This document shows, one piece after another, positions 25,570 to 63,022 of a DNA stretch of 64,000 nt. The notes under the pieces were generated by a model. It did no database searches. It was not told where the DNA came from and was given only the letters and a program-made list of their open reading frames with translations. Origin of the DNA: Panopea generosa (Eukaryota; Mollusca; Bivalvia; Adapedonta; Hiatellidae); NCBI GenBank assembly GCA_029582155.1, contig CM055901.1, forward strand, positions 28,098,152 through 28,162,151, in the 5' to 3' direction. Positions within the stretch are counted from its first letter, which is position 1. Every line of letters starts with the position of its first letter. Both the position numbers and the translations under genes were made by a program.

Positions 25570-27650
25570 GAGCGGTGTTTACGAAAATTGAAGATACGGT
25601 TAACGATAGTTTATCACAAATCACTGCAAGTCATCATTGTTGACAATGCAATATTACAAATCATCGTTATTTGTTGACGATTACCGCTATCTGCCAATGT
25701 TGACGATGACATATAACAAATCACTACAACCCATCATTGTTGACGATGCTATATCACAAATCACCGTTATATTCAATTGTTGACAATGCTATATCACAAA
25801 TCACCGTTACGTTTCATTGTTGACGATGCTGTATCACAAATCACCGTTATAATTCATTGTTTACGATACTATATCACAGATCATCGTTACATTCCATTGA
25901 TGTCGATGTTATATCACAAATTACCGTTACATTTCATTGTTGTCGATGCTATATCACAAATCCCCGTTACATTCCATTGTTGTCGATGCTTTATCACACA
26001 TCACCGTTACATTTCATTGTTGACGATGCTATATCACAAATCACCGTTGATTTCTATTGTTGTCGATGTAATATCACAAATCCCCATTACATTTCATTGT
26101 TGTCGATGCGTTATCACACATCACCGTTACATTTCATTATTGTCGATGTTATATCACAAATCGCCTTAAATTCCATTGTTGTCGATGCTATATCACAAAT
26201 CACCGTTACATTCCATTGTTAGCGAAGCTATATCAAAAAAACACCGTTACATTTCATTGTTGACGATGCTATATCACAAATCACCGTTATATTTCATTGT
26301 TGTCGATGCTATATCACAAACCACCGTTACATTTCATTGTTGACAATGCTATATCACAAATCACCGTTACATACCATTGCTAATAATGCTATATCACAAC
26401 TCACCGTTGCATTCTGTTGTTGTCGCTGCTATATTACAAATCCCCGTTACATTCCATTGTTGCCGATGCTATAGTACACATCACCGCAACATTTCATTGT
26501 TGACGATGCTATAGCACAAATCACCGTTACATTCCATTGTAAATAATGCTATATCAAAACTCACCGTTGCATTCTGTTGTTGTTGATGCTAAATCACAAA
26601 TCCCCGTTACATTCCATTGTTTTCGATGCTATATCACACATCACCGTTACATTTCATTGTTGACGATGCTATATCACAAATCCCCGTTACATTCCATTGT
26701 TTTCGATGCTATATCACAAATCCCCGTTACATTCCATTGTTTTCGATGCTATATCACAAATCACCGTTACATTCCATTGTTGACGATGTTATATCACAAA
26801 TCACCGTTACATTCCGTATTTAACGATGTTATATCATAAATCACCGTTACAGTTAATCAATTATTGACGATGCTATATCATAAATCACCGTTACATTTCA
26901 TCATTGACGATACTATATCACAAATCACCGTTACATTTCATTATTGACGATACTATATCACAAATCACCGTTACATTTCATTGTTGACGATGCTTTATCA
27001 CAAATCACTGTTATATGCCATTTTTGACGATTATCGTTATAAACAAATATTAACAAATCATTGTTACTCATCGCTGTTAATGATGCTATCTCACAAATCA
27101 CAGTTACCGATAGCTGTTAGAAATTATCGTTACCCGCCATTGTTAAGGATGATATATCACAAATCACTTTAATTCATATTTGTTGATGATGCTATATTAC
27201 AAAATCTCTGTTACCAACTGCTGTTAACGATTACCGTTATCAGCCACTGTTGATGATAATACTGTATATCACAAAGACTTTTAACTCGTCATTGTTGACG
27301 ATACTATTTTACAAATCTCCGTTACCGATCGCTGTTGACGATTACCGTTATCAGCCAATGTTGTGTATGGTATATCACATACGACTGTAACTTGTCATTG
27401 ATGACAATTACCGTAATATGTTATTGTTAACGACTAGGTATCACAAATTATCGTTACTTTTCGCTGCTGACGATTATCGTAATCTACCATTGTTAACGAC
27501 GAGATATCACAAATAATCGATCCTGTTTGCGGCTTACGATTGTCGTAATATGCCATTGTTAACGACGAGATATCACAAATAATCGATACTGTTCGCTGCT
27601 TACGATTATCGTTAACGACCACTGTTATCGATAACATATCAAAAGTCACT
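25570..27650. repeat. 40-bp satellite, about 50 units
   Basis: The unit is TGTTGACGATGCTATATCAC followed by AAATCACCGTTACATTTCAT, 40 bases long, nearly regular from 25750 to 27000. Flanking units are more diverged and include TTACCGTTAT/GACGATTA variants. Long repetitive translations on both strands come from the array and are not genes. Confidence 0.95.
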
Positions 27651-28070: not shown

Positions 28071-28765
28071 GGGAAACTAAAACATCAAACGAAATGAACA
28101 TATCTATTCAGTGCAAATGATTAACTTTATAACAAACTTTGAAACAATGCAATAAAACTTATAGGTACCCACGAAAATGCTGTATTAAGAACAGAGCACT
28201 GTTCAATTGAGTTTTGTTATCAAACGTTAAAAATTTAATGTTACTAAACGCAACCCTAAGTTTATCAATGCTAACACGTGCGTCGTTTAACGTTACTCAT
28301 TTCACGTGTCATCCATCATACTCTCATTCAAATATAATTATGCTAATTCCAGTATGTCATATACTGTCATTGTTATATGACAAAATAATCACAGATGCTA
28401 GGCCAAAATATGATTAATTTGCATAAAAATGAAGAAATTTACATAAAGCTTGTCGTCTTAATTAGTCGCAAATAAGAGATGGTATAGCACACGGCAATAA
28501 CCCCGTGACTGCAAAAAGTTATTATCACTTACCAGACATGACACATACCGAATAACACCTTTAACAAAAACGCCCTGAGCTATGTCGTTTAAATTACAAA
28601 TTTCTAATTTGCATACATACTTGAGGTTAATATATACAACTTCAGTTTTGATTAATAATGTGTTTATTATAGACTCATTACGTCGATACGACAACAGGTT
28701 TTTTTATAAGTGTATATTATGGGTCGCTTGCAAATACTGATTCAGTCTTCATTGTTGACGGTATA
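28071..28765. other. No gene seen
   Basis: AT-rich spacer. It includes several short open frames but no splice-bounded or recognisable sequence. Confidence 0.5.
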
Positions 28766-28767
28766 TA

Positions 28768-29450
28768 AGTTTGTGCAGTTTGTGAAGTTTTTCTGCATTG
28801 TCGGCCATACCAAAACCTCAGAGAACCATAAAGAGATATATAAGTATGGACAGCTTGTAAAGGTTTTATTCGTTGTCAGGCATGCCAAAACCTCAGAGAA
28901 CCATAAAGAGATACATAAGTATGGACAGCTTGTTAAGGTTTTATTCATTGTCAGGCATGCCAAAACCTCATAGAACCATAAAGAGATATATAAGTTACAT
29001 GTAGGACAGCTGCTTTTATTCATTGTCAGGCATGCCAAAACCTCAGAGAACCATAAAGAGATATATAAGTATGGACAGCTTGTAAAGGTTTTATTCATTG
29101 TCAGGCATGCCAAAACCTCAGAGAACCATAAAGAGATATATAAGTTACATGTAGGACAGCTTGTAAAGTTTCTATTCATTGTCAGTCATACCAAAAACCC
29201 AGAGAACCATAAAGAGATATATAAGTATGGACAGCTTGTTAAGGTTTTATTCATTGTCAGGCATGCCAAAACCTCAGAGAACCATAAAGAGATATATAAG
29301 TATGGACAGCTTGTAAAGTTTCTATTCATTGTCAGTCATACCAAAAACCCAGAGAACCATAAAGAGATATATAAGTATGGACAGCTTGTAAAGCTTTTCT
29401 GCATTGTCGGTCATACCAGAACTTAGGGAACCTTTCCTGTATATAACCAA
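28768..29450. repeat. 75-bp tandem repeat, about 8-9 units
   Basis: Units contain GGCATGCCAAAACCTCAGAG, AACCATAAAGAGATATATAA and GTATGGACAGCTTG. GCCAAAA occurs at 28884, 28959, 29034 and 29109, a strict 75-base period. Diverged remains (GTCGGTCATACC, GTCGACCA) continue to about 29880. Since 75 is a multiple of three, a 145-codon repetitive minus frame results. Confidence 0.92.
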
Positions 29451-37750: not shown

Positions 37751-38930
37751 TTCTTTGTTTAGAAGACTAGTATAAATGGGTACTGTGTGAATTAAGTTAG
37801 GACAAACATGAACACAGCAAAATAACTCTCCATGTGTAATTCCTTTCATAAAAATGCCAAATAATCAGTTGACTCCCCTCTCTAAAAATTAACAAACAAC
37901 TGATATTCTGGTAAATATCATTAAAACAAAATTTGTGATATATTTTATTAAAAGTTGGCAAATAAATCAAAATTTAATTTAAAAAAAAACACAAAAAAAA
38001 AAACAACAAAAAATGTATAAAAAATTATATCAATTCTATACGTAACCAGTCCCAGCCTAAACCTACTGAACATCAAGTCTTTACTTACAAATGAATCAAT
38101 TAACACGAATATTGAAGATCAGTTGTTGGCAAAACTAACTTTAATAGTACAAAAAAATAATAACAACAGAAATGTATGTTATAAAAAAAAAATCCATAAA
38201 AATGTATTAAATTTTTAACATACCAGAGAGGAAATATTACCAGTACGTTTAAATAAATGTTAATAAAATGCGGCAAGTTTAGTAACTTGTACAGGTGTAA
38301 CCAGTTTAGTGTTATTGATGAAATCTAAACATAATTTGTCATGTTAACAGCTATTATATATACATTTCTTTGTTAAGATACTTTAGTTGGTAAGTTTAAA
38401 TAACACAGTGGTGCGCGCAGGACCCTGGGAAGTGGTAAAATAGGATAGAAAAAAACTTTTTAAAGTGAGTAAACGTGAAATAACTGTTTAAGTAAATAGC
38501 AAATAAGTAAACGATAAAACAGGCATTCAATTTAAACTTTGAGTGGATTCATAACAATCTTGGATGCGAGGCAAAAAAAATGAAAAAAAAAAACAACAAC
38601 AAACGACAACTTAACATAAATGTAAGCTCTCTGTGTTGCTGTATTTTCCATTACCTTGTAACATTTAATGGATTAATACGATGTGACAGTTTCATTTTTT
38701 TTGTGTGTGACATATTAATTAAGTCAAGCTATCCATCACAGTTTGACAATTGAACAAACTTTCTGTGCTTTTGCTGATATTCATACAATATACCCATTCA
38801 TATACAGGGTCAGTAAAAACAACATTTATTATTACAGTGATCGCTCTGGTATGAAATTATTAACCAATTATACCTCACTTTTTATTCCTTTTAATAATAA
38901 GAGCATATCATGGTCGATTCAAAAGTAATA
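37751..38930. other. No gene seen
   Basis: Very AT-rich DNA with many poly-A runs. No coding support. Confidence 0.5.
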
Positions 38931-38934
38931 GTTC

Positions 38935-41900
38935 TTAATGTAAAACAACCATAGGCAACCATGTTATTTATCTACAGCACTTTGTGACAGAAGAGTTGTT
39001 ACACATGCAGATCATGGTCATATCAGAAGAAATAGTTCTTAATGTAAAACAAACACAGGCAATCACGTAAATTATCTTCAGCACTTTGTGACAGAAGAGT
39101 TGTTACACTGGCAGATCATGGCCATATCAGAAGTAACAGTTCTTAATGTAAAACAAACACAGGCAACCATGTGATTTATCTTCAGCATTTTGTGACAGAA
39201 CAGATGTTACACTTGCAGATCATGGTCGTATCAGAAGTAATAGTTCTGAATGTAAAACAAGCACAGACAACCATGTGATTTATCTTCAGCACTCTGTAAC
39301 AGAAAAGATGTTATACTTGCAGATCATGGTCGTCTCAGAATAGTTCTAAATGTAAATCAAACACAGGCAACCATGTGATTTATCTTCAGCACTTTGTGAC
39401 AGAAGAGTTGTTACACTTGCAGATCATGACGTATCAAAAGTAATAGTTCGGAATGTAAAACAAGCACAGGCAACCATGTGATTTATCTTCAGCCTTTTGT
39501 AACAGAAGAGTTGTTACACTTGCAGATCATGGTCGTGCCAGAATAGTTATTAATGTAAAACAAACACAGGCAATCACGTAATTTATTTTCAGCACTTTGT
39601 GACAGAAAAGTTGTTACACTGGCATATCATGGTGATATCAGAAGTAATAGTTTAAAATGTAAAACAAACACAAGCAATCATGAAATTTATCTTTAGCACT
39701 TTGTAACAGAATAGTTGTTACACTGGCAGATCATGGTCGCATTAGAAATAATAGTTCTAAATGTAAAACAAACACAGACACTCACGTAATTTATCTTCAG
39801 CACTTTGTGACAGAAGAGTTGTTACACTGGCGCAGATCATGACCATATCAGAAGTTAAAGTTATAAATGTAAAACAAACACAGGCAATCACGTAATTTAT
39901 CTTTAGCACTTTGTAACAGAAGAGTTGTGACACTGGATGATCATGGCCATATCAGAAGTTACAGTTTAAAATGTAAAACAAACACAAGAACCATGTGATT
40001 TATCTTAAGCACTTTGTGACAGAAGAGGTGTTACACTGGCAGATCATGGTGGTATCTGAAGTAATAGTTCTTAATGTAAAACAAACACAGGCAATCACAT
40101 AATTTATCTTCAGCACTTTGTGAAAGAAGAATTTTTCACTTGCAGATCATGGCCGTATCATAAGTAATAGTTATAAATGCAAAACAAACACAGGCAACCA
40201 TGTGATTTATCTTCAGCTTTTGTGACAGAAGAAATGATGTAAAACAAACACAGGCAATCATGTAATTTATCTTCAGCACTTTGTGACAGAATATATGTTA
40301 CATTGGCAGGTCATGGTTGCATAAAAAAATAATAGTTGTAAATGCAAAACAAACACAGGCAATCACGTAATTTATCTTCAGCACTTTGTGACAGAAGAGT
40401 TGTTACACTGGCAGATCATGGCCATATCAGAAGTTAAAGTTATAAATGTAAACAAACACAGGCAATCACGTTATCTATCTTCAGCACTGTGTGACAGAAG
40501 AAATGTTACATTGGCAGGTCATGGTCGTAACAGCAGTAATAGTTTTAAATGTAAAACAATCAAAGACAACCATGTGATTTATCTTCAGCTCTGTGTGACA
40601 GAAGAGATGTTACACTGGCAGATCATGGCCGTACCAGAAGTCGTAGTTCTAAATGTAAAACAACCAAAGACAATTATGTGATTTATCTTCAGCACTGTGT
40701 GACAGAAGAGATGTTACACAGGCAGATCATGGCCGTACCAGAAGTTATAGTTCTAAATGTAAAACAAACACAGGCAACCATGTGATTTATCTTCAGCACT
40801 GTGTGACAGAAGAGATGTTACACAGGCAGATCATGGCCGTACCAGAAGTAATAGTTCTAAATGTAAAACAAACACAGGCAATCACGTAATTTATCTTCAG
40901 CACTTTGTGAGAGACGAGTTGTAACACTGGAAGATCAAGTAATAGAATTAAATGTTAAACAAACACAGGCAATCATAAAATTTATCTTTAGCGCTTTGTA
41001 ACAGAATAGTTGTTACACTGGCAGATCATGGCCGTATCAGAAGTAATAGTTCTTAATGTAAAACAAACACAGGCTACCATGTGTTTTATCTTCAGCACTT
41101 TATGACAGAAGAGTTGTTTAACTTCAGATCATTGCCATATCAGAAGTTATAGTTCTTAATGTAAAAACAAACACAGGCAACCATGTGATTTATCTTCAGC
41201 ACTTTGTGACAGAAGAGTTGTTACACTGGCAGATCATGGCCGTATCAGAAGTAATAGTTCTTAATGTAAAAACAAACACAGGCTACCATGTGTTTTATCT
41301 TCAGCACTTTATGACAGAAGAGTTGTTACACTGGCAGATCATTGCCATATCAGAAGTTATAGTTCTTAATGTAAAAACAAACACAGGCAACCATGTGATT
41401 TATCTTCAGCACTTTGTGACAGAAGAGTTGTTACTCTGGCAGATCATTGCCGTATCAGAAGTTATAGTTCTTAATGTAAAACAAACACAAGCAACAATGT
41501 TATTTATCTTCAACACTTTGTGACAGAAGAGTTGTTACACTGGCAGATCATGGCCATATTAGAAATAATAGTTTTTAAAGCAACACATCCACGTTTAAAC
41601 TTTTTTAAAAAGTTTTTCAATTGAGTTGTGAGCACATTTCCCATACATAAATATATGATCAGTGAGCTGTATATGTGCTAACAAACACTATCCAGAACGC
41701 TTTAGAATTATAAAAAAAGATGTCCAAATTATAAAGCGTGACAAACGCTTTATAAATTATTTTTAAAATTGCCGAGGATTCCAACTTGGCTTCAAATTGA
41801 ATTATGCGAGTCATATTAAAAAACTTCACGTTTTAGTGCGTAGTGTACTTTACCTGCCTTGAAAGTCATTTTGACAATTTTTTTTACTTGGGTGAGTTAC

Positions 41901-42545
41901 ACGCTTGTTTTATAAAGTGTTAGTCATGCATTATAATTTGGGCATCATTTTGTTCGGGATTGTGTTTATATGCTCATATACAGCTAATTGATCATATGTT
42001 TGTATGGGAAATGTGCTCATAACTCAATTAAATTTTTTTTTTAAAAGTTCAAACGTGGATGTGTTGCTTTAATGTAAAACAAACACAGGCAATCACGTAA
42101 TTTATCTTCAGCACTTTGTGACAGAAGAGTTGTTACACTGGCAGATCATGGCCATATCAGAAGTAATAGTTCTTAATATCAAACAAACACAGGCAATCAC
42201 CTAATTTATCTTCAGCACTTTGTGACAGAAGAGTTGTTACACTGGCAGATCATGGCCATATCAGAAGTAATAGTTCTTAATGTAAAACAAACCCAGGCAA
42301 CCATGTGATTTATTTTCAGCACTTTGTGACAGAAGAGTTGTTACACTGGCAGATAATGGCCATATCAGAAGTAATAGTTCTTAATATCAAACAAACACAG
42401 GCTACCATGTGTTTTATCTTCAGCACTTTGTGGCAGAAGAGTTGTAACACTGGCAGATCATGACTGTATCAGAAGTGATAGTTATAAATGTAAAACAAAC
42501 TCAAGCAGTTACGAAATTTATCTTCAGTACTTTGTGACAGAAGAG
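38935..42545. repeat. 103-bp satellite, about 30 units, split by a foldback element
   Basis: The unit contains AATGTAAAACAAACACAGGC, TTTATCTTCAGCACTTTGTG, ACAGAAGAGTTGTTACACTG and GCAGATCATGGCCATATCAG. CAGCACTTT-type marks at 39079, 39183, 39287 and 39387 give a period near 103. Right-hand units are more alike than left-hand ones. Translations across it are artefacts. The block 41579-42067 is foreign to the array. Confidence 0.95.
41575..42071. mobile_element. 489-bp foldback/MITE-like element flanked by TTAA
   Basis: The ends AGCAACACATCCACGTTT and AAACGTGGATGTGTTGCT are exact inverse complements. The inverted arms continue inward for roughly 100 bases at good similarity and more weakly to the centre. 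TTAA stands on both sides and once in the empty satellite unit (GTTCTTAATGTAAAAC), so TTAA was duplicated on insertion. That target is typical of piggyBac-type elements. It has no open frame and is non-autonomous. Confidence 0.88.
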
Positions 42546-42719
42546 TTGTTACACTGGCAGATACAGAACCAGAGGATAAAGAGTCATCACCCCTGACATT
42601 GGTGGATCCCACATGGCAAAACATCTTGTATCCATATAGATAGGGGCTATATATACTTCTGCAGGACCATGTGACCAAGGTCTTAAATAAAAGGATATGA
42701 AACTTTCATCTCCTGGATA

Positions 42720-44989: not shown

Positions 44990-47900
44990 TTAACAGTTTG
45001 GTAAGATAAGGCAATGGTTTGAGAGAGGTGGCTTCCATTTTGGTTCTTTGAACTCTTGTAAATATCTCACATAGGTGACCCCATCCATCTCCTTGCCTGT
45101 GTCTGCCTTCTTCTCGAGATACATACCTGTCAGGGTACAACATATAGGAGACATATTAATTAGTAAATATATTCAAACTTTGTCAGGGTACAACATATAG
45201 AAGACATATTAATAGGTAAATATATCCAAACTTTGTCAGAGTACATCATATACAAGTCATATTTGTTAATATTCAAACTTTATCAGGGTATAACATATGA
45301 TAGAGAAGACATATTTGTTAATATTCAACTTTGTCATGGTACACACAAAGAGAAGATATATTAGTTTATATTCAAATTTTGTCAGGGTACAACATAGAAT
45401 AGACATATTTATTAATATTCAAACTTTGTCAGGGTACAACATATAGATGTCATATTTGTTAATATTCAAACTTTGTCAGTGTGCAACATATAGAAGACAT
45501 ATTAGTCAATATTCAAACTTTGAGAGGGTATGATATATAGAAGTTATATTAGTTAATATATTCAAACTTTGTCATGGTACAACATATAGAAGTCATATTT
45601 TTTAATATTCAAACTTTGTCAGGGTACAACATAGAGAAGACATTTTAGTTTATATTTAAGCTTTGTCAGGGTACAATATATAGAAGACATATTAGTCAAT
45701 ATTCAAACTTTGAGAGGGTATGATATATAAAAGTTATACTAGTTAATATATTCAAACTTTGTCAGGGTACAACATATAGAAGTCATATTAGTTAATATAT
45801 TCAAACTTTGTCAGGGTACACTATACAGAAGTCATATTTGTTACTGTAATATTCAAACTCTGTCATGGTACAACATATAGAAGTCATATTTTTTAATATT
45901 AAAACTTTGTCAGGGTACAACATAGAGAAGACATATTAGTTTATATTTAAGCTTTGTCAGGGTACAACATATAGAAGTCATATTTACTTAATATTCAAAC
46001 TTTGTCAGGGTACAACATAGAGAAGACATTTTAGTTTATATTTAAGCTTCGTCAGGGTACAACATATAGAAGACATATTAGTTTATATTCAAACTTTGAC
46101 AGGTTAAAACATATACACGACATTTCTATGAAAGGTCTTCACTAAGAAAACCAGTTAGTTGATATTAATAACCTTTTTGAGGCAAATATTGAGAATAGAA
46201 CCCTTGATATAAGTTATGGTATATAATATTGAAATTCAATATCATAATTTAAAGTGAAAACATTGCCTAATTGGGAAAAAATTACCAACACTAAATTGAG
46301 AAATCAAGATAAAATACTAATGTGTTATAATAACATGAACATCTTAGCAGCTTTGTTCCAACCTTTGTATTGAGTGTCGGTAACTTTGATTATGGTCAAG
46401 CCCTACTTGAAAACTGAAGCCTTGAAAACAGATAAGGCAACAAAAGAATAGAAATACAGACTCTCAAATTTACCTATATCACTTCTTGGAGGCAGAGATA
46501 TACTCCTGTTCCAGTAGGGTTCTTCTAATGTTAAGAGATCTCGTACACTTTTGGCTATAATCTGTCAAATAAAAAAAACAACTGTTAATAGAATGCTGAC
46601 GATGTCTATGGCCGCAAAAATAACAATGAACATCCACTCATTAAAATTCAAATTTAAAGATGGCACAAGATATTTTCAAATTGGTATCTATTGTCTATGA
46701 CTAGAGAAACACCATTTCACATGTCAGTCAATAAAACAACGTTGTTATCTAATGGAAATGGTACATGGTACGCTGTAGTGTTGTTTGCTTTAACCTTTCC
46801 TCAAATACAACTGACCCATTTTAAATGATTTAGATTAGCTGAAATATAGCTTAGATACTATGCAGTGTGCATATATCAAGTGGTCATTAAAACTGCTTCT
46901 AGACACACTGACACCAAGAGTATTTAAAGTCAATTGGTGATACAATGCTTTCAAGGACAGGCGGATTTCTATTAGTATTTCATTTAACATCAGCCTGATA
47001 GTTAAACAGTATACATAAGCTACATATAAAAGATTGCAATTATTCTTCGACATTAACCTTTTTATGAAACAATAAAAATGTTCGAAATTAAGCCTTAGTG
47101 ATAGATATGGCATATTAAATAGTGATTTTTTTGTTGTTCTTTTTATTTTCAAAAAAAAAAATATATATAGTATGGTATATTATTTCTTATAATACGCACA
47201 ATCAAACTCTGTAATTTCCTACCTTTATATGGTCAAAATCTGTAATTCCAATGTTTGGCAAATGTGAGGCTTCCATATGAATGAGTTTTCTACCATTTAT
47301 CATGTTGTCAGTTATGCATGCCTACAAATACAAAATTGAGATATTCAAAGCAGGTATATAGTGGAAGTGACTAGTTATTTACATAAAGGACATGTTGTAA
47401 GAGAAAGGAATGATGGTTTGGAACTATTATTAATATTTGACTTTTTAGTAAGCTAAGTTTTTATGATTTGAGTCTGTCTCTTATGAAGAACCAACACAAA
47501 ATGGGTTTCTTATTTTTTGTTTAAAAGGCCATCGGGTAAATCTCTGAGACTGACAATAACCAACACTACTTCCCCGTATGACTTTGATCAAATGGAAAAG
47601 TATTGTGTCTGAAATCAAAAAGTAAAAAACATCCAGTAAAAAAAAAACTGCCTGAATAAACATTGGCGCAACCTCCCCCACAAGTTTATGCCAAGTCTGT
47701 ACTTGGAGGAACTGAGAAGAAACACAAGACATGGACCAATAGAACCCGTAGGCTCACATATGGTCTCGGTACAGTAAGTTATCAAAATCCAGATAAAGTT
47801 TTTGTCAGAAGAAGCAGGGCGTTATATTAACTCCTTTTTTAACCAACTATCCAAAGTAATAGACTAATACCTATAATTCAGTGCATATTTGTTTAGGGAT

Positions 47901-54700: not shown

Positions 54701-57700
54701 TTTGTACTGGTTATTCATTGTTTCATACTGAAGCATTGAAATGTTGATGTACTGATATTGAAAAGTAACTACTTGTGTCATTGTTCTGAACTATAACTGA
54801 CATACACATATTTGTCACATAATGAACGGTGCAAGAGTGTTATTAACCCATGACATATTTTTTATATTACGTTAACCTAATGCAATATCACTTCGATTCA
54901 TCGTTCATTGTTTTCTGTATTACACTGCTCTCATACGTAAAAATGCTAAACTAAACATTCTACTTCCCAAAAGATGATATAATGCTCAACAGAGCCGCAC
55001 ATAGTATATTTCTGCAAACTCATTTAATAATTCAGTAATGAACAAGCACTCATGTGAGATTCTCTATATATGTATTGTATATATGTGTACTTGATGATAC
55101 AGAACGAGACATTAGACGATGTTCCACAAGCTGTGATTGATGAATGTGCACAACTGGTGAAAGCAAATAGTATACAAGGTAAGTGTCATTAGCATTAAAA
55201 AAAGTTGTTTGTGCTGAAGGTAAAAAATTCATGAAAGTGTTTAGCCAGAAAGTTTTTCTATGTGTTAGTCGCATCACAGTAGTTGTAAATAATCAAAGTT
55301 TCTTTTTATTTTGATTGATTGATTGAAAATTTATCATCACTTTTATGCCATCGAGGGCTAGTAGACAATAAGTTATCCTAACCACTGTTTCCTGGGATCC
55401 TGGAAGGTTAACCAGAACTCGAGCACACATCATCTCCACAAGTAACTGACAACTTTCCCACTTGAATCAGCAGTGAGAAGAATGGAGATAAGACGCAATG
55501 TTGTATGTCAACCATCATGGAGATTGTGGCAGGATGGGGATTTCAAATGCACAACCTCTGGATTGATAGACATGTTATCAGGCCTGGCAAATACAAATTA
55601 ACAATACACAATAATGTATGTACATGTATATTATATCATAATTATCTAGCTTGAATTTCTTGGATAATTGTACCTTGTAGATACATGTTACGAAGGACCT
55701 ATAAAGAAGGATAGGAAACTTGCATCTTTCTGCTATATGTTTATAAAATAGCATGTAAAGAATTAATAATTTGGCAAATTAATCATTCAAATTTCACAGG
55801 CAACTGATTTATTTCACATGAAATGTAACATATATATAACCTTAGATGTTTTATAATGTTTTAAACGCGCAAAATGGTCTTGAATTTAAAATATTGAAGT
55901 TTGAAGTAAAATTTCAAGTTCTTTCCTTGATTTTTAGCTCTAAAAGGCCAGAAGTGCTTATGCGATGGCGCGTTGTCTGTTGTCCGTCGTCTGTTAGCAG
56001 CACTTTTTCTGAAACCACTAGGCCAATTAAACTGAAACTTCACATGCATGTTTCTGTTGCATAGGAGACTATACAGAAGATTTTTTTTTTTCGATCTGAA
56101 ATTCAAGATGGCCGCCATAACTAAAAATAGTCCAAAACTTAAAAAATCTTCTTCTCATGAACAGCCCAACAGATTTTCAAAATGTTTATGTAGTAATGAT
56201 GACCAACTATAGTATTGTTAGATTTGTTCAAATGGTGTCCCTAGGATTCAATATGACCCCGCCCCGAGGGTTCAATTAGGGGACACATGTCATTATATTT
56301 TTTTTTTTTTTTTTTTTTTTAAATGGTAATGATTTTGCCTATATCTTCACAGAAGCATTGTTAGGTGAAGGAGGTTCAGTTTGTAAAAATGACTAGGTTC
56401 CACTGTCTTAAGGGGTCAGGAGGGGCCCCAAAAGGGTAAAAATTGGGAATTACTAAAATCGTTTTCCTAAGAACCGGTATGTCAGATTTGTTCATATTTG
56501 GCATAAATTATCCCTACATGTAGGGGTTTGATTGCAGATAAGAATTAAGGGGCTAAAATTTATAGGGGCCCTGTTAGGGGACTTAGAATTTTACATAGGG
56601 ATACTATGGGAAAACAGAAAATTCTCTTTTTCTTTCATCTATTCTGAAACTACTAGGCCAATTAAAATGAAACTTCACATGCATGTTTCTGTTGCATAGG
56701 ACACTATATAGAAGATTTTTTTTTTTTCGATCTGAAATTCAAGATGGCCGCCATTACTAAAAATAGTCCAAAACTTAAAAAATCTTCTTCTCATGAACGG
56801 CCCAACAGATTTTCAAAATGTTTATGTAATAATGATGACCAACTATAGTATTGTTAGATTTGTTCAAATGGTGTCCCTAGGGTTCAATATGACCCCGTCC
56901 CGAGGGTTCAATTAGGGGACACATGTCATTACAATACTTTTTTTTTTTTTTTTTTAAATGGAAATGATTTTACCTATATCTTCACAGAAGCATTGTTTGG
57001 TGAAGGAGGTTCAGATTTTGTAAAAATGACTGGGTTCCACTGTCTTAAGGGGTCAGGAGGGACCCCAAAAGGGTAAAAATTGGGAATTACTAAAATCGTT
57101 TTATTAAGAACCGGTATTTCACATTTGTTCATATTTGGCTTAAATTATCCCTATGTGTAGGGGTTTGATTGCAGATAAGAATTAAGGGGCTAAAATTTAT
57201 AGGGGCCCTGTAAGGGGACTGAGAATTTTACATAGGGATACTATGGGAAAACAGAATATTCTCTTTTTCTTTCATCTATTTGAAACCACTAGGCCAATTA
57301 AAATGAATCTTCACATGCATGTTTCTGTTGCATAGGAGACTATACAGAAGATTTTTTTTTTTCGATCTGAAATTCAAGATGGCCACCGTTACTTAAAATA
57401 GTCCAAAACTTAAAAAATCTTCTTCTCATGAATGGCCCAGCAGACTTTCAAAATGTTTATGTAGTAATGATGACCAACTATAGTATTGTTAGATTTGTTC
57501 AAATGGTGTCCCTAGGGTTAAATATGACCCTGCCCCAAGGGTTCAAATAGAGGACACATGTCATTATAATATTTATTTATTTACTTTTTTTAAAATGGAA
57601 ATGATTTTGCCTATATCTTAACAGAAGCATTGTTAGGTGAAGGAGGTTCAGATTTTGTAAAAATGAATGGGTTCCACTGTCTTAAGGGGTCAGGAGGGGC

Positions 57701-60700
57701 CACAAAAGGGTACAAATTAGGAATTACTAAAATCGTTTTCTTAAGAACCGGCATGTCAGATTTGCACATATTTGGCATAAATTATCCCTATGTGTAGGGG
57801 TTTGATTGCAGATAAGAATTAAGGGGCTAAAATTTATAGAAGCCCTGAAAGGGGACTTAGAATTTTACATAGGGATACTATGGGAAAACAGAAAATTCTC
57901 TTTTTCTTTCATCTCTTCTGAAACTACTAGACCGATTAAACTGAAACTTTACATGCATGTTTCTGTTGCATAGGAGACTATACAGAAGATTTTTTTTTTC
58001 GATCTGAAATTCAAGATGGCCGCAGTTACTAAAAATAGGTCAAAACTTAAAAAATCTTCTTCTCATGAAATACCCAGCATATTTTCAAAATGTTTATGTA
58101 GTAATGATGACCAACTATAGTTTTGTTAGATTTGTTCAAATCTTGTCCCTAGGGTTAAAAATGACCCCACCCCGATATTTCTATTGCATAGGAGAATTTC
58201 AAAAAGTGCTATGGCCACTATGAGTCAGTAGAGCGTCCTCAGGCCCTCTTGGGCCTCTTGTTTGGTTGCAGTTTACACATTGTGTAATCGGAATTACTTC
58301 AACAGTTTTAAACATAATTTGATGGGAATGGTCTCATTTCTTTTTTCCTTCCAGTGGTTGTACAAGATATATTAAATGAATAGATTTCTCCGTGCTTGCT
58401 TAGATCCATTAAATACGGTTGTTAATTGCAGGAAAAAAAATGAATATTGTAGATCTCGTTTATATCATGTGGGAGAATCTCAAATTAAATATGGTTGTTA
58501 TTTGCAGGCAATAAAATAAATAATGTAGATGTTGTTTATACCATGTGGGAGAATCTAAAATTAAATATGGTTGTTATTTGCAGGCAATATACAAAATAAT
58601 GTAGATGTTGTTTATACCATGTGGGAGAATCTAAAATTATATATGGTTGTTATTTGCAGGCAATAAAATGAATAATGTAGATGTCGTTTATACCATGTGG
58701 GAGAATCTCAAGAAAACAGCAGGTATGGATGTAGGACAAGTGGGCTTTCATAACAACAAAGAAGTAAGTACTTGTGTAGTATGACGGTGATATTTTCATA
58801 CTTCGTATGTGAGATAAAAAAACACTTCAATTTCTTGGAAGGACTTCTGGCCATTATGACAGTTTGATATGTAACACTTACCATTCAGGGAAAATATAAG
58901 GGTTTTTTATTTCAGGGTCGGGGGTGGGGGTGGGGGGGGGATGGGTACCAGTAATTTCATTAGGTCAATAAATACTGAGGATTTTGTACGAAATCTGGGA
59001 AATATGAGCTCTATATTAATACTGGCTCCTGTTTTACCAACAATTTTTTTTTAAAAACTTTTGACTGGTTACTTTAAAATATTCTTTTTCAATGTCAATG
59101 AAACAATTTGTTGTTTTTTTCTGGATCCAGTAAAAAAATCATGAACACTAGAATGTGATTCTTAAATATCAGATTATTTTTTTAAAATTGATACAAAGCA
59201 TCTCATTATCATAAACTTATGAAATCTGAATGGCTTGGCATATCAAATCCACGAAATGTGATAAGAAAATTTTTTTTAATCAGAGTGGTAAATTTGAAAC
59301 AATATCCCCATTCTAAAAAAAAGAAAGCTCTTAATGCTGCTTTACAACCTTCACATCATCATTCAGATTCTTTCTAAGATGAAACAAATTCTACAATATC
59401 TAAACCAGTATAAGGATCAAATCAAAATGAAATCATTTGAATCATTTTATATGTCACAAAATATGTTGCAATCTTTAGCGAGAAATCTAATTTAATCTAA
59501 CCTGGGCGCAGGTATGATAAACTGAACAATTTTTTTTAAAGCCAATTTCAAAATTTTTAAAAATCCTGATATACTTTCTTTAAGTTAAAAGTGTTAAAGC
59601 ATAATATTAAACAGGAGCCTGTATAAAAGATTTCTGTTTTTGCTGTTACTACAAGCAACAAGGGTAGTTTTTTAACTGAAAATATCAAAATAACAATTAT
59701 ATACTGCAATATATAAAAACAAAATATAAATTCATTTTAGTTTCACTGGCATAGCCACACTGTGGCAGGAGGAGGCAACTGCCTGCTCGATATTTCCAAA
59801 AGCTAAATTGTGTATTTAAGTATGAAATGACAAAAACGTCATAAAAATGTAAATTTTTGTCTTCTTTAAGCGCTTAAAAATTTGTCTGAAATAATTGGAA
59901 AGCACTTGGAATTCGATTAAGAATCAAAATATTTTCAGTAAGACAGTCACTATGGTTTTAATGGAAATTGTCATGAAACTTAATAATTAATTTCAACATG
60001 TATATCCTGTACATGTATGTTCTGTTCCAATCACTGTGTCGGTATGTTGGCTTGTCCATCCGGCTTATTGTTTCATAACAACTCCTCCCACAGTTTTCAT
60101 TAGGTTTCACATAAACATACATGATATTAGGATTTCTTGTTTAATGCTCATTCAAAGATCAAAAATTCTTTCGCTACAAATCTTATACAAGCAATCCGTT
60201 GTCTTTCAGTGAAAATAAAATAATTTCTGTTGGGCACTGATGTTGTTTTGTTTCATTGCTAAACTCTCATATACATGTACAAAGTTTTTGAATTTGTTTT
60301 TTACTTTTCAGGTAAGAAAAATTAGAGTAGAAAAAAGAATAAATGAAATAGTAAATAGACTTAATAAAACTAAAGAAGAGAAATTTCCTGATTTACGTGC
60401 AGCGAGAGAAGACAGAGATAGGTCAGAACGAGAAGACCAAAAGCATAAATTACTAGACCAGAAGAAACGAGAAAGAGATGAAGCAGAACGAAGAGAAAAA
60501 GAAAAGGAAGCGAGGTAAATGTTATACTAGATTATTAATGTAAATACGCAAGAACATGGTGCATATACCTGATATCAGAAACTCATCAGACAAGTAGTCC
60601 AAGAGAGTTTTTGAACCAGCTGATTTGACCCAAGAGTCACAGATTTTTCAATTTTTGTAACAAGTCTCCAGCTGAATGCTTCATGCATAACATCAGAGCT

Positions 60701-63022
60701 CTGGGCCTTTTGATTTGTGTTAAACATTTAAAAGATAGTTCTAGTTCTGGATTTTCGGGTAGTTTAGTTTTAACTTATTTATTTTACTCAGATTGTGAAA
60801 CTAGTTCTTACAACTTGGGCAAATCATGCTCAAAGTCTTTTTGGGTGTAACCAGTACTAAGCATATATGGAAAAAAGTGCATGCTTAAGGACACTACACA
60901 TAGCCTTAGTGGAAGATTGAACCCACAAACCTCCGATCATGGGTTCTGTGCTCTACCACTGGATCACACGCTCCACATGGTCAGATGTGGGCTTAATGCA
61001 ACTGTGTGGAGTATCATACCTTGTGTCTGAATACTGTCTCAAGTAGACACTGTTGCGATATGACTGAGAAATTGCTGAAAGTGCCGTTAAACATCATACA
61101 ACAGCATTTAACCATATTTCTTTTAACCTAAAGATCCTCATTACCATTTAACCAGTTTTTAATTAACTATACAGATCATATTTACATTTAACCATGTTTC
61201 TATTAACTTTACAGGTATTATTTATATTTAACAATATTTCTGTTTTATTAATGAGACACACTTTGGTTTGCCATATACATGTTCTTCATTTAACCATATT
61301 TGCTTTATATAGATAATATTCACATTTAAATATATTTTATAGGTCATATTCAAATTTGATGACAGAGGAGAAGATGACTTCTAATCGGGCAAGTTGTTTA
61401 TAATTATATACCTAATCATCAACAAATTTATGGTGTCCTTTGTGGCCGAGTGGTCCGTTGTAATGTTTCAAAATCATTTACCTATTAACAACTGAGGTTG
61501 TAGGTTCGAGTCCAGCTTGTTCCAAAAACTTGTTATAAAATTTCCCAGTTACTTACAGAAGGAGAGTGGTTCTACTCAGATTCAATCCAAAGTCTTCCTC
61601 CACCAATAAAACTGGATAGGTGATATATTACCCAAAATGTGTTGATGAATAAACCAATATAAATGTGAGTTTGTGTTACTGCATTCAATTACACCATTAT
61701 TTTAATTTCATACCGGGTCATCCTGCATTGAGCTTACCAGTATATATTCGGATTATATTCAGACATACTGGTACTGTTCATTTTACACAATGCTTTATTT
61801 ACGCTTGTAAAGTAAGTTTGGAGCTTTTGTGAATTATGAGAGTGTACTTTTCTGCATAGAAGCAGTACTGGGTGTTGTTTTGGAGAAGCTATCAGCTTGA
61901 ATCTGGGATTGGACCCGTGACCTCCGGCATGCCCAGCCAACACCATATCCACTACCTCCCTTGCACATTGTTTGTGCTGTTCATTGCCAAGATATTCATA
62001 GTCACAGTCTTGTTTACATTTTTGCCAGTTTTGTTCTATAATTGGAAAAGTAATTTATTCACATGACCAAATCTTAACTTCTCAAGGTTTAAAAGAAGTT
62101 TATATGCATGTTGACTTCTCCAGAATTCATTTTTTTTCCATTTAAAACTTGGTAATCAAGACTAACAATTTTTCAATGTCACCAGATTCCCAGTGTGTGT
62201 CATATGCCAAAGTCTAACTATGTATAAATAACATTTTGGTTGGCTAAATATAACATATAGCTTAAGTGTATTACAAGGACTTGTACAGTTCAGTTGAAAC
62301 TTATACATTTTTATTTTACATTGATTGAGAACAAATACTTACTTATTTTTTCATTGATTGAGAACAAATACTTATTTTACATTGATTGTGAATAAATACT
62401 TACTTATTTTATGTTTACTGAAAACAAAAATTTATTCATTTTACATTGAGTGAGAACAAATGCTTGTTTATTTTACATTGATTGAGAACACATTATTATT
62501 TATTTTACATTGATTGATTGAATATTCAGCATCATTTTTATGCCATCGAGGGCTAACAGACGATCAGTTAACCTAACCACTGTTTCCTGGGATCCTGAAA
62601 TGTTAACCAGTACTCAAGCACATAACTGATAACTTTCTCACTTGAGTCAGCAGTGAGAGATGAATGATAATGAGACACAATGTCGTATATCAGTCATCAC
62701 TGCGAGTGGAGATTAGAACTCATGACCCTTGGATTAATAGTCAGATGTGCTGCCGACTGAGCTAATCCGGCCCGACCTACATTGAATACCCCTTACACCT
62801 TAAACAAATTGTTAACTATGTCTTCCTTGGTAAAAGCATGATAATGAAGATAAAGTGTCTACTAGGTACCACACTGTCATTGCTGTGGCAGGAGGCAGAA
62901 CTCAAAACCGCCTGATCCATCCTGGGTCTGCCCATGTGACCTTGTTCACCACATTGTACTGTTCAAATAAGTTTATATTTCTGTTTCAGGATGGTGGAAA
63001 CGACTCGGATGATTTCATGTAA
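48733..63022 (+). CDS. CCDC25: Coiled-coil domain-containing protein 25 (CCDC25), 9 exons, 208 aa
   Basis: Exons: 48733-48757, 49929-49976, 51776-51815, 52901-52952, 55103-55178, 58660-58763, 60312-60514, 61343-61388 and 62990-63022. They total 627 nt, phases fit, and the length equals human CCDC25. The start MVFFFTC matches the conserved N-terminus. Residues 1-115 form the NFACT-R/DUF814 fold, with [40 protein letters not shown] and [14 protein letters not shown]. Residues about 120-185 are a highly charged helix (coiled coil, EKEKEAR). The end NDSDDFM is near-identical to the human tail. In vertebrates the protein has been reported at the plasma membrane as a sensor of extracellular-trap DNA, while the domain itself is a nucleic-acid-binding module related to ribosome quality control factors. 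Intron 8 has a GC donor. Exon 6 is preceded by three decayed copies of its own start. Confidence 0.95.
49330..49915. mobile_element. Foldback element in CCDC25 intron 1
   Basis: The left arm has GATTTACAAACT, ACCATAATTTGCTTTTAAAC and ATTTGTAATCTTTAA. The right arm has, inverted, TTAAAGATTACAAAT, GTTTAAAAGCAAATTATGGT and AGTTTGTAAATC. Arms are about 100 bases with an interior of about 350. No open frame, so a non-autonomous inverted-repeat element. Its right end is within about 20 bases of the exon 2 acceptor. Confidence 0.75.
50225..50590. mobile_element. Interspersed repeat with internal duplication in CCDC25 intron 2
   Basis: GATCATTTGT(A/T)GCAAGTATCA and ATCTATGCATGACAAAGTTA occur twice (near 50280-50330 and 50450-50490). 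They are followed by GGACGGACGGACAATGCAG and a terminal AAAAATTTTTTGGGGG palindrome. A block of this style is familiar to me from bivalve genomes, but I cannot name the family. Confidence 0.55.
51370..51640 (-). mobile_element. tRNA-derived SINE (family A), reverse orientation, CCDC25 intron 2
   Basis: On the minus strand the head reads CCGGTTAGCTCAGTCACCTG (A box) and the body continues to GGCATAAAACTGATG. It ends about 135 bases before exon 3. Confidence 0.65.
51860..52020 (+). mobile_element. SINE-like copy (family D), CCDC25 intron 3
   Basis: AGTGTTGGCTGCTCACACTA, CGGTTCATATAAGCTCCGAG and CAATCAAACTAAAACAAATT follow the order seen at 10465-10625. Confidence 0.6.
52355..52510 (+). mobile_element. 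SINE-like copy (family D), CCDC25 intron 3
   Basis: The head TGGTAGTGCAATAGATAGTG (A-box-like) and AGAGGTCGCAGGTTCAATC (B box) is the best preserved of the family. It is followed by CACCCAGTACC and CAATCAAGCTAAATTA. Confidence 0.65.
53462..53675 (+). mobile_element. tRNA-derived SINE (family B), CCDC25 intron 4
   Basis: The head CTCTGTGGCCGAGTGATCC and GTAGGTTCGAGTCCTGC resembles a tRNA with a long variable arm (Ser/Leu type). The body ends ACCAATAAAACTGGATATGC, then CATATATAACC, and an A-rich tail. Confidence 0.8.
55315..55600 (-). mobile_element. tRNA-derived SINE (family A), reverse orientation, CCDC25 intron 5
   Basis: TTGATTGATTGAAAATTTAT, ATGCCATCGAGGGCTAGTAG and CTGTTTCCTGGGATCCTGGA on the plus strand are the inverted body and tail of family A. 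Confidence 0.75.
55690..58370. repeat. Dispersed repeat family X, third copy, split by a 2.3-kb insertion
   Basis: The left part (55690-55936) matches 35260-35470. The right part (58263-58345) resumes with GTTTACACATTGTGTAATCG, matching 35480-35510. Everything between is absent from the 35-kb copy. Confidence 0.75.
55937..58262. mobile_element. Inserted element made of about 3.5 tandem 636-bp units, CCDC25 intron 5
   Basis: Unit starts (GAAAC-ACTAG-CC) lie at 56011, 56646, 57282 and 57920, spacings of 635, 636 and 638. Each unit carries TTTCTGTTGCATAGGAGACT, a poly-T, TTCGATCTGAAATTCAAGAT, GGCCGCC, a second poly-T run, and GTAGGGGTTTGATTGCAGAT. The last unit is cut short and ends GGGCCTCTTGTTT. 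No open frame. The outer edges were placed by comparison with the empty site at 35.46 kb. Confidence 0.85.
58417..58659 (+). repeat. Three decayed tandem copies of the CCDC25 exon 6 acceptor and exon start
   Basis: Copies begin at 58417, 58493 and 58569, with the functional one at 58645, an exact 76-base period. Each carries GGTTGTTATTTGCAGG-like acceptor sequence followed by a version of the exon (AATAATGTAGAT, TATACCATGTGGGAGAATCT). The copies read into one another and meet stop codons. Confidence 0.95.
58915..58941. repeat. G-rich run in CCDC25 intron 6
   Basis: GGGTCGGGGGTGGGGGTGGG followed by more G. A candidate intramolecular G-quadruplex on the sense strand of the pre-mRNA. Confidence 0.85.
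58942..60239. other. CCDC25 intron 6, no other feature
   Basis: AT-rich intron sequence without recognisable repeats or open frames. Confidence 0.5.
60765..60985 (-). mobile_element. tRNA-derived SINE-like copy (family C), reverse orientation, CCDC25 intron 7
   Basis: CTTAAGGACACTACACATAG, GATTGAACCCACAAACCTCC and CTCTACCACTGGATCACACG on the plus strand give, inverted, a tRNA-like head with A and B boxes. Confidence 0.7.
61430..61665 (+). mobile_element. tRNA-derived SINE (family B), CCDC25 intron 8
   Basis: CCTTTGTGGCCGAGTGGTCC and GTTGTAGGTTCGAGTCCAGC give clear A and B boxes, with an insertion between them. The tail is CACCAATAAAACTGGATAGG. Confidence 0.8.
61845..61965 (-). mobile_element. 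SINE-like copy (family E), reverse orientation, CCDC25 intron 8
   Basis: GGGATTGGACCCGTGACCTC and AGCCAACACCATATCCACTA match 37603-37750. Confidence 0.55.
62300..62510. repeat. Short tandem repeat in CCDC25 intron 8
   Basis: TTATTTTACATTGATTGAGA followed by ACAAATACT recurs about every 35-40 bases, five or six times, and runs into the tail of the family A SINE that follows. Confidence 0.75.
62505..62785 (-). mobile_element. tRNA-derived SINE (family A), reverse orientation, CCDC25 intron 8
   Basis: The inverse strand shows GGCCGGATTAGCTCAGTCGG (A box) and GGGTCATGAGTTCTAATC (B box), the clearest tRNA-like head of this family in the window. Confidence 0.82.
62800..62965 (-). mobile_element. 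SINE-like copy (family C), diverged, CCDC25 intron 8
   Basis: GATAAAGTGTCTACTAGGTA, then GTGGCAGGAGGCAGAACTCA and CCTGGGTCTGCCCATGTGAC, correspond to the inverted family C order. It ends about 25 bases before exon 9. Confidence 0.45.

Follow-up and report, generated by a model that had tools for sequence, protein, structure and literature searches.

A 76-bp tandem array of mirage-like anatomy across the intron 5-exon 6 border of a putative CCDC25 gene in a mollusc genome

Minisatellite-like tandem copies of intron-exon borders were described previously in the amphioxus globin genes BflGb6 and BflGb9, for which the name "mirages" was taken from an earlier report on Adh3 (PMC3087553). Haplotypes of BflGb6 with 6 and with 3 units are given in the same paper, and the Adh3 data together with the RT-PCR of those authors suggest that mirages leave regular splicing undisturbed. 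Tandem repeats lying over splice sites were also reported for the lancelet gene PGBD5, and the authors, who cite troponin C as well, think that splicing is unaffected (PMC3902484). Work on human paralogs suggests that novel introns may arise via cryptic splice sites from variable tandem repeats located where exon and intron meet (PMC2812944). A model of intron gain by tandem duplication of splice signals is set out in PMC3087553 and mentioned in PMC2809761. In the open-licence literature searched, junction arrays were described in amphioxus, gene by gene, with related repeats in human paralogs (PMC2812944); no survey of such arrays in a mollusc genome was found among these papers.

In our study, an array of this kind was found in a mollusc, on the forward strand of the window (the whole stretch of 64,000 nucleotides that was analysed), in a gene which we take to be CCDC25 from the encoded protein. 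In agreement with a molluscan source, a muscle myosin exon of this genome (L105) scored 98.5 bits against scallop myosin entries, 91.7 against a squid entry and at most 83 against all others listed, and a second exon (L090) gave the same order by a small margin. Exon 5 (55103-55178) ends in phase 1 and is followed by a GTAAGT donor, exon 6 (58660-58763) contains 104 nt and is followed by a GTAAGT donor at 58764, and exon 7 is present at 60312-60514, all on the forward strand. Intron 5 is about 3.5 kb and intron 6 about 1.5 kb long. The last G nucleotide of exon 5 together with exon 6 codes for 35 amino-acid letters of CCDC25, and exons 5, 6 (from 58660) and 7 join in an open frame that reads as CCDC25. 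The first exon was not located with the one probe used, and a search for the NFACT-R family gave no match in the window and two on contig C4.

The array was found to contain four units of 76 bp, arranged head to tail and free of indels, at 58408-58712 on the forward strand. It was recognised by TRF (58408-58708, period 76, 4.0 copies, 91% matches, 0% indels, score 490), by register alignment and by the differences between units, the unit starts lying in exact register at 58409, 58485, 58561, and 58637. An origin by chance is ruled out by the length and identity of the array. Intron 5 contributes its last 23 nt to the 76-bp unit, and exon 6 contributes up to its first 53 nt. The intron part of the unit in copies 2 and 3 is TTAAATATGGTTGTTATTTGCAG. 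Copy 1 (58409-58484), copy 2 (58485-58560), and copy 3 (58561-58636) carry decoy acceptors on the forward strand whose AG ends at 58431, 58507, and 58583, respectively. Copy 4 (58637-58712, forward strand), with its acceptor AG at 58658-58659 and the first 53 nt of exon 6, was taken as live, the CCDC25 frame being kept open from this copy only. The first exonic bases predicted for copies 1 to 4 are 58432, 58508, 58584, and 58660, respectively. An earlier note on this DNA, made from the sequence, had described four exon 6 acceptors at exact 76-bp spacing, as is now confirmed. It had placed the last acceptor correctly at 58660 and the other three one base too high (58433, 58509, and 58585), and its estimate of some 35-40 coding bases per copy was too low, the duplicated stretch of exon 6 amounting to 49-53 nt.

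The last 19 intron bases were identical among copies 2, 3, and 4. Per 76 bases, copy 1 was the most diverged, with 7 private changes and with 10, 13, and 9 differences from copies 2, 3, and 4, respectively; 3 differences were found between copies 2 and 3, 5 between copies 2 and 4, and 8 between copies 3 and 4. Copies 2 and 3 have three states in common that are absent from copies 1 and 4. This pattern fits a history in which copy 1 would have split off long ago and copies 2 and 3 would have separated late. When 58417-58763 was searched against the whole 1.47-Gb genome, by a method that passes over simple repeats and very common words, the only match was the sequence itself.

The CCDC25 array matches the amphioxus mirages in anatomy; in BflGb6 the intron end and exon start are likewise duplicated and the signals are kept in many copies, the BflGb6 units being 81-100% identical to each other (PMC3087553). 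The two differ in the unit length, which is 76 bp here and 150-160 bp in BflGb6, and in the animal group, mollusc against amphioxus. Length variation between haplotypes (6 and 3 units) was shown for BflGb6 (PMC3087553); the CCDC25 array is known from one assembly. The repeats of lancelet PGBD5 concern another gene and another animal group (PMC3902484). The repeats of human paralogs resemble the CCDC25 array as minisatellites that alter exons or introns, some of them at exon-intron boundaries, but there the exonic repeats or activated cryptic sites make new introns, whereas the extra CCDC25 units sit in an old intron (PMC2812944). The same paper suggests that junction copies may not always be silent, and this counts against a neutral reading of the array. 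The intron-gain model has in common with the CCDC25 array the duplicated splice signals as raw material for exons and introns, but the present locus shows no sign of a newly formed exon or intron. The minisatellite of the human gene 6-16 (IFI6) also lies over a splice site; unlike the array described here, it reportedly has a short unit and provides several splice donor sites, with alternative donors in use.

The CCDC25 array consists of tandem units that span the intron-exon border with part of both. A single copy runs on into the full exon, the duplicates are placed towards the intron, and the AG is kept in all three of the duplicates. Judged from these features, it has the anatomy of a mirage, and it appears to be one of many such arrays in this genome. 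The full 104-nt exon is reached only from the last acceptor (AG ending at 58659), as the earlier note had read it, and no stop was found in frame from copy 4; from the open protein frame, copy 4 is presumably the one used in the RNA. After splicing into copy 3, a stop would be met 97 nt ahead of the exon 6-7 junction; for copy 2 the distance is 164 nt and for copy 1 it is 249 nt, so that the stop claimed previously for copy 2 holds for copies 1 and 3 likewise. By the 50-nt rule, a transcript becomes open to nonsense-mediated decay when its stop precedes an exon junction by a distance greater than about 50 nt. All three decoy stops lie beyond this distance, as a poison-acceptor switch would need. 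It had also been pointed out that an added unit shifts the frame; this is true of the unit length, but if the last copy is used, added units are intron and the shift is moot.

Other exon loci of the same genome were sampled from exon-sized matches to the kinase, kinesin, and myosin protein families. Among the 343 listed places (136 + 126 + 81), 160 were read, as L004-L163, comprising 50 kinase, 70 kinesin, and 40 myosin loci; this sample is biased to stronger matches and, after the first 60, consists mostly of matches without stop codons, and some loci may be mutual copies (kinesin places on contig C3 with equal scores). The flanks were 1500 bases in 60 loci and 300 bases in 100 loci, all being trimmed to 300 bases for the count. 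A direct repeat was counted as edge-crossing when it reached 8 nt or more beyond the match edge in each direction, the edges being those of profile matches and not of transcripts. Repeats with a partner beyond 300 bases were excluded from this count and from the coverage profile given below.

Edge-crossing direct repeats were found in 14 of the 160 loci (myosin 7/40, kinesin 6/70, kinase 1/50). First-order Markov shuffles of the same 160 loci gave no such repeat in any of three repetitions. Thirteen of the 14 were judged by eye, together with the frames, to be splice junctions, nine being donors (L052, L065, L085, L089, L100, L117, L137, L139, and L141) and four acceptors (L092, L099, L119, and L126). 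The kinase locus L019 was dropped as a splice case, since no junction could be clearly made out and its repeat appears to lie where a kinase reading frame ends. All 13 junction arrays were found in kinesin and myosin genes, i.e., in 13 of the 110 sampled exons of these families; many of the 50 kinase matches span nearly the whole domain in one open frame and thus have no junction at the match edge. The exon part of the 13 arrays ranged from 4 to 68 nt. The weakest of them, L085, contained two copies and had a score of 26 against a threshold of 24. In L052 (1-1519 of the locus; contig C11 near 30.83 Mb), the end of a kinesin exon and its donor are contained in a 43-bp unit present in at least 35 copies, the value of 35.4 being a lower bound for a locus that is cut at the array end, and the GT was kept in all 30 aligned decoys. 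In 60 exon loci with 208,644 bases in total, minisatellites with a period of 15 or more and a score of 80 or more accounted for 16,690 bases and were present in 31 loci; in the window they covered 9,690 of the 64,000 bases. Junction arrays seem to be common in this mollusc genome. In L039 (1718-2380) and L004 (2-1460), minisatellites were found 8 and 41 bases from the exon match, respectively, with no exon sequence visible inside, so that there the array borders the splice site.

The mean repeat coverage fell from 0.080 in the outer flank, 80-280 nt away from the match edge, to 0.056 in the 15 nt directly outside the edge and to 0.029 on its inner side, at 15-30 nt. The ratio of edge to flank coverage was 0.70 (bootstrap 0.47-0.96), and that of inside to flank coverage was 0.37 (bootstrap 0.19-0.60). 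For the 110 kinesin and myosin loci alone, the edge/flank ratio was 0.71 (0.47-0.99), and for the 50 kinase loci alone, which are too few to tell, it was 0.63 (0-1.88). A duplication process aimed at splice sites was rejected, as the coverage has no peak at the edge and declines from the flank to the exon. The simplest reading is that tandem duplication is high everywhere, with weak selection against it at junctions and stronger selection within exons.

In the 14 arrays (CCDC25 and the 13 others), the live copy was assumed to be the one adjoining the rest of the exon, since the conserved protein reads on from there, and the duplicates lie on the intron side; the junctions of the sampled loci were placed by us from GT/AG and frame near the match edges. 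The GT or AG was kept in 75 of 84 decoys, where 62.3 are expected from the neighbouring bases, copies within one array not being independent; without the 30 decoys of L052, the values were 45 of 54 and 38.6, respectively. The dinucleotide was partly lost in L117 (kept in 7/12), L126 (3/6), and L100 (2/3). By these counts, the idea that decoys decay faster than their surroundings was rejected. The splice sites were scored with a generic, textbook-like matrix of approximate values, by which 53 of 83 decoys scored as high as the live site or higher, 28 of these 53 belonging to L052; one L117 decoy is unscored, the scan having ended one base earlier at the locus end. Without L052, 25 of 53 decoys did so. 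At least one decoy matched or exceeded the live score in 10 of the 14 arrays, and none reached it in CCDC25, L085, L089, and L137. With this approximate matrix, the live acceptor of CCDC25 scored 5.2 and the decoys 3.2, 3.2, and 0.3, the lowest being copy 1; the live site scores highest here, and so local strength may help at this locus. Across the arrays, a choice by local strength alone was rejected on the 53 of 83 decoys that equal or surpass the live site. Since strength fails to single out the live copy over the set, position probably decides.

Carranza and colleagues reported that, where the introns on either side are long, preference is given to the splice sites that lie closest to each other across the exon (PMC9225289). 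In the same paper, this preference was confirmed by minigenes for donors; for acceptors between two long introns, the preference for the upstream site was significantly reduced but not plainly reversed. From these data and the length of introns 5 and 6, we infer that exon definition picks the copy, more firmly for donors than for acceptors. The CCDC25 array is very probably a minisatellite lying over an intron-exon border, a mirage, from which the spliceosome chooses the exon-adjacent copy by position and which is close to neutral. A tandem duplication would have taken the end of intron 5 together with the start of exon 6, and later rounds of duplication would have led to four units. The real acceptor would then be that of the copy adjoining the remainder of the exon, and the three copies before it would have become intron. 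The spliceosome most likely selects the exon-adjacent copy through exon definition, because the introns are of about 3.5 and 1.5 kb, the exon has 104 nt, and the last copy alone is joined to the full exon, near its donor. If a decoy were used now and then, the resulting transcript would carry a premature stop and would probably be degraded. The array would be close to neutral, as one among many in a genome with heavy tandem duplication, although GT and AG are retained more often than expected from the bases around them, which neutrality by itself does not predict and which counts against this explanation.

We regard it as unlikely that the array is instead mildly harmful, the decoys being used mistakenly at a low rate and the array heading for loss. 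The difference of only 3 in 76 sites between copies 2 and 3 would agree with this, and an edge coverage of about 0.7 of the flank is compatible with weak selection against such arrays. However, copy 1 differs from the other copies at 9-13 of 76 sites, and the array is therefore not very recent, unless mutation is fast.

It is highly unlikely that the array acts as a poison-acceptor switch, in which regulated use of the decoys would send CCDC25 transcripts to nonsense-mediated decay and the copy number would tune the level. The AG kept in 3/3 decoys, the last 19 intron bases, which copies 2 and 3 have in common with the live copy, and the stops reached from all three decoys 97, 164, and 249 nt before the exon 6-7 junction speak for it. 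Against it stand the 13 further sampled junctions of like anatomy in other genes, the lack of enrichment of repeats at splice sites, and the divergence of copy 1 with its lowest score of 0.3. The acceptors are decoys in form, each with AG and a following stop, but with 13 of 160 other loci alike they do not appear to be a special device of CCDC25. Since similar junction repeats occur in other genes of the same genome, the array looks more like a side effect of heavy tandem duplication, to be ignored by splicing, than like a special switch. A splicing switch of an immune gene, as proposed in the earlier note, found no support, as such repeats recur at junctions of other genes and their density at exon edges does not exceed that in the flanks. 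The immune function assigned to CCDC25, the sensing of neutrophil-trap DNA, is derived from mammalian work, and nothing in our analysis transfers this role to this animal. The observation of the earlier note was correct and well read; its interpretation was overdone. The amphioxus mirages, too, appear not to disturb regular splicing, which speaks against the switch (PMC3087553).

An assembly artefact is barely credible, for while assemblies are known to go wrong at tandem repeats and the array comes from a single assembly, the copies carry private and shared differences where artificial duplication would yield identical copies, and comparable arrays are present at other loci of the genome.

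A single decoy array in CCDC25 matters little, and the base rate is the more interesting result. We give about even chances to the broader proposition that tandem copies routinely stand beside the splice junctions of this genome, many of them equal in strength to the real site, so that the spliceosome must choose from position and exon context. If this is true, the genome would amount to a test of exon definition carried out by nature on a large scale, and to a lasting reservoir of splice signals from which new introns and exons could arise. If about one in ten exons carries copies of its own junction, and if many of these are no weaker than the real site, this would provide a test, over many junctions, of how the spliceosome chooses between near-identical sites, and it would bear on whether new introns originate from copies of this kind.

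A second, larger tandem array was found in the same intron 5, at about 56000-58160 on the forward strand, with a unit of about 636 bp and between 3 and 4 copies. It is visible as diagonals at offsets of 635-638 and 1271-1274, and 60-base windows were 72-100% identical to their partner over 56000-58159 and 32-48% identical outside. This array ends about 250 bp before the 76-bp array, its limits being accurate to about 60 bp, and it was not listed by TRF because the longest period was 500. Large minisatellites were also found by TRF elsewhere in the window, at 38903-42562 (unit 104 bp), 25698-27031 (unit 40 bp), 28762-29422 (unit 75 bp), and 45128-46123 (unit 47 bp). Further downstream in CCDC25, exon 8 (61343-61388) ends in CGG and is followed by an apparent GC donor, GCAAGT, instead of GT; with this donor, exons 7, 8, and 9 are in frame to the stop.
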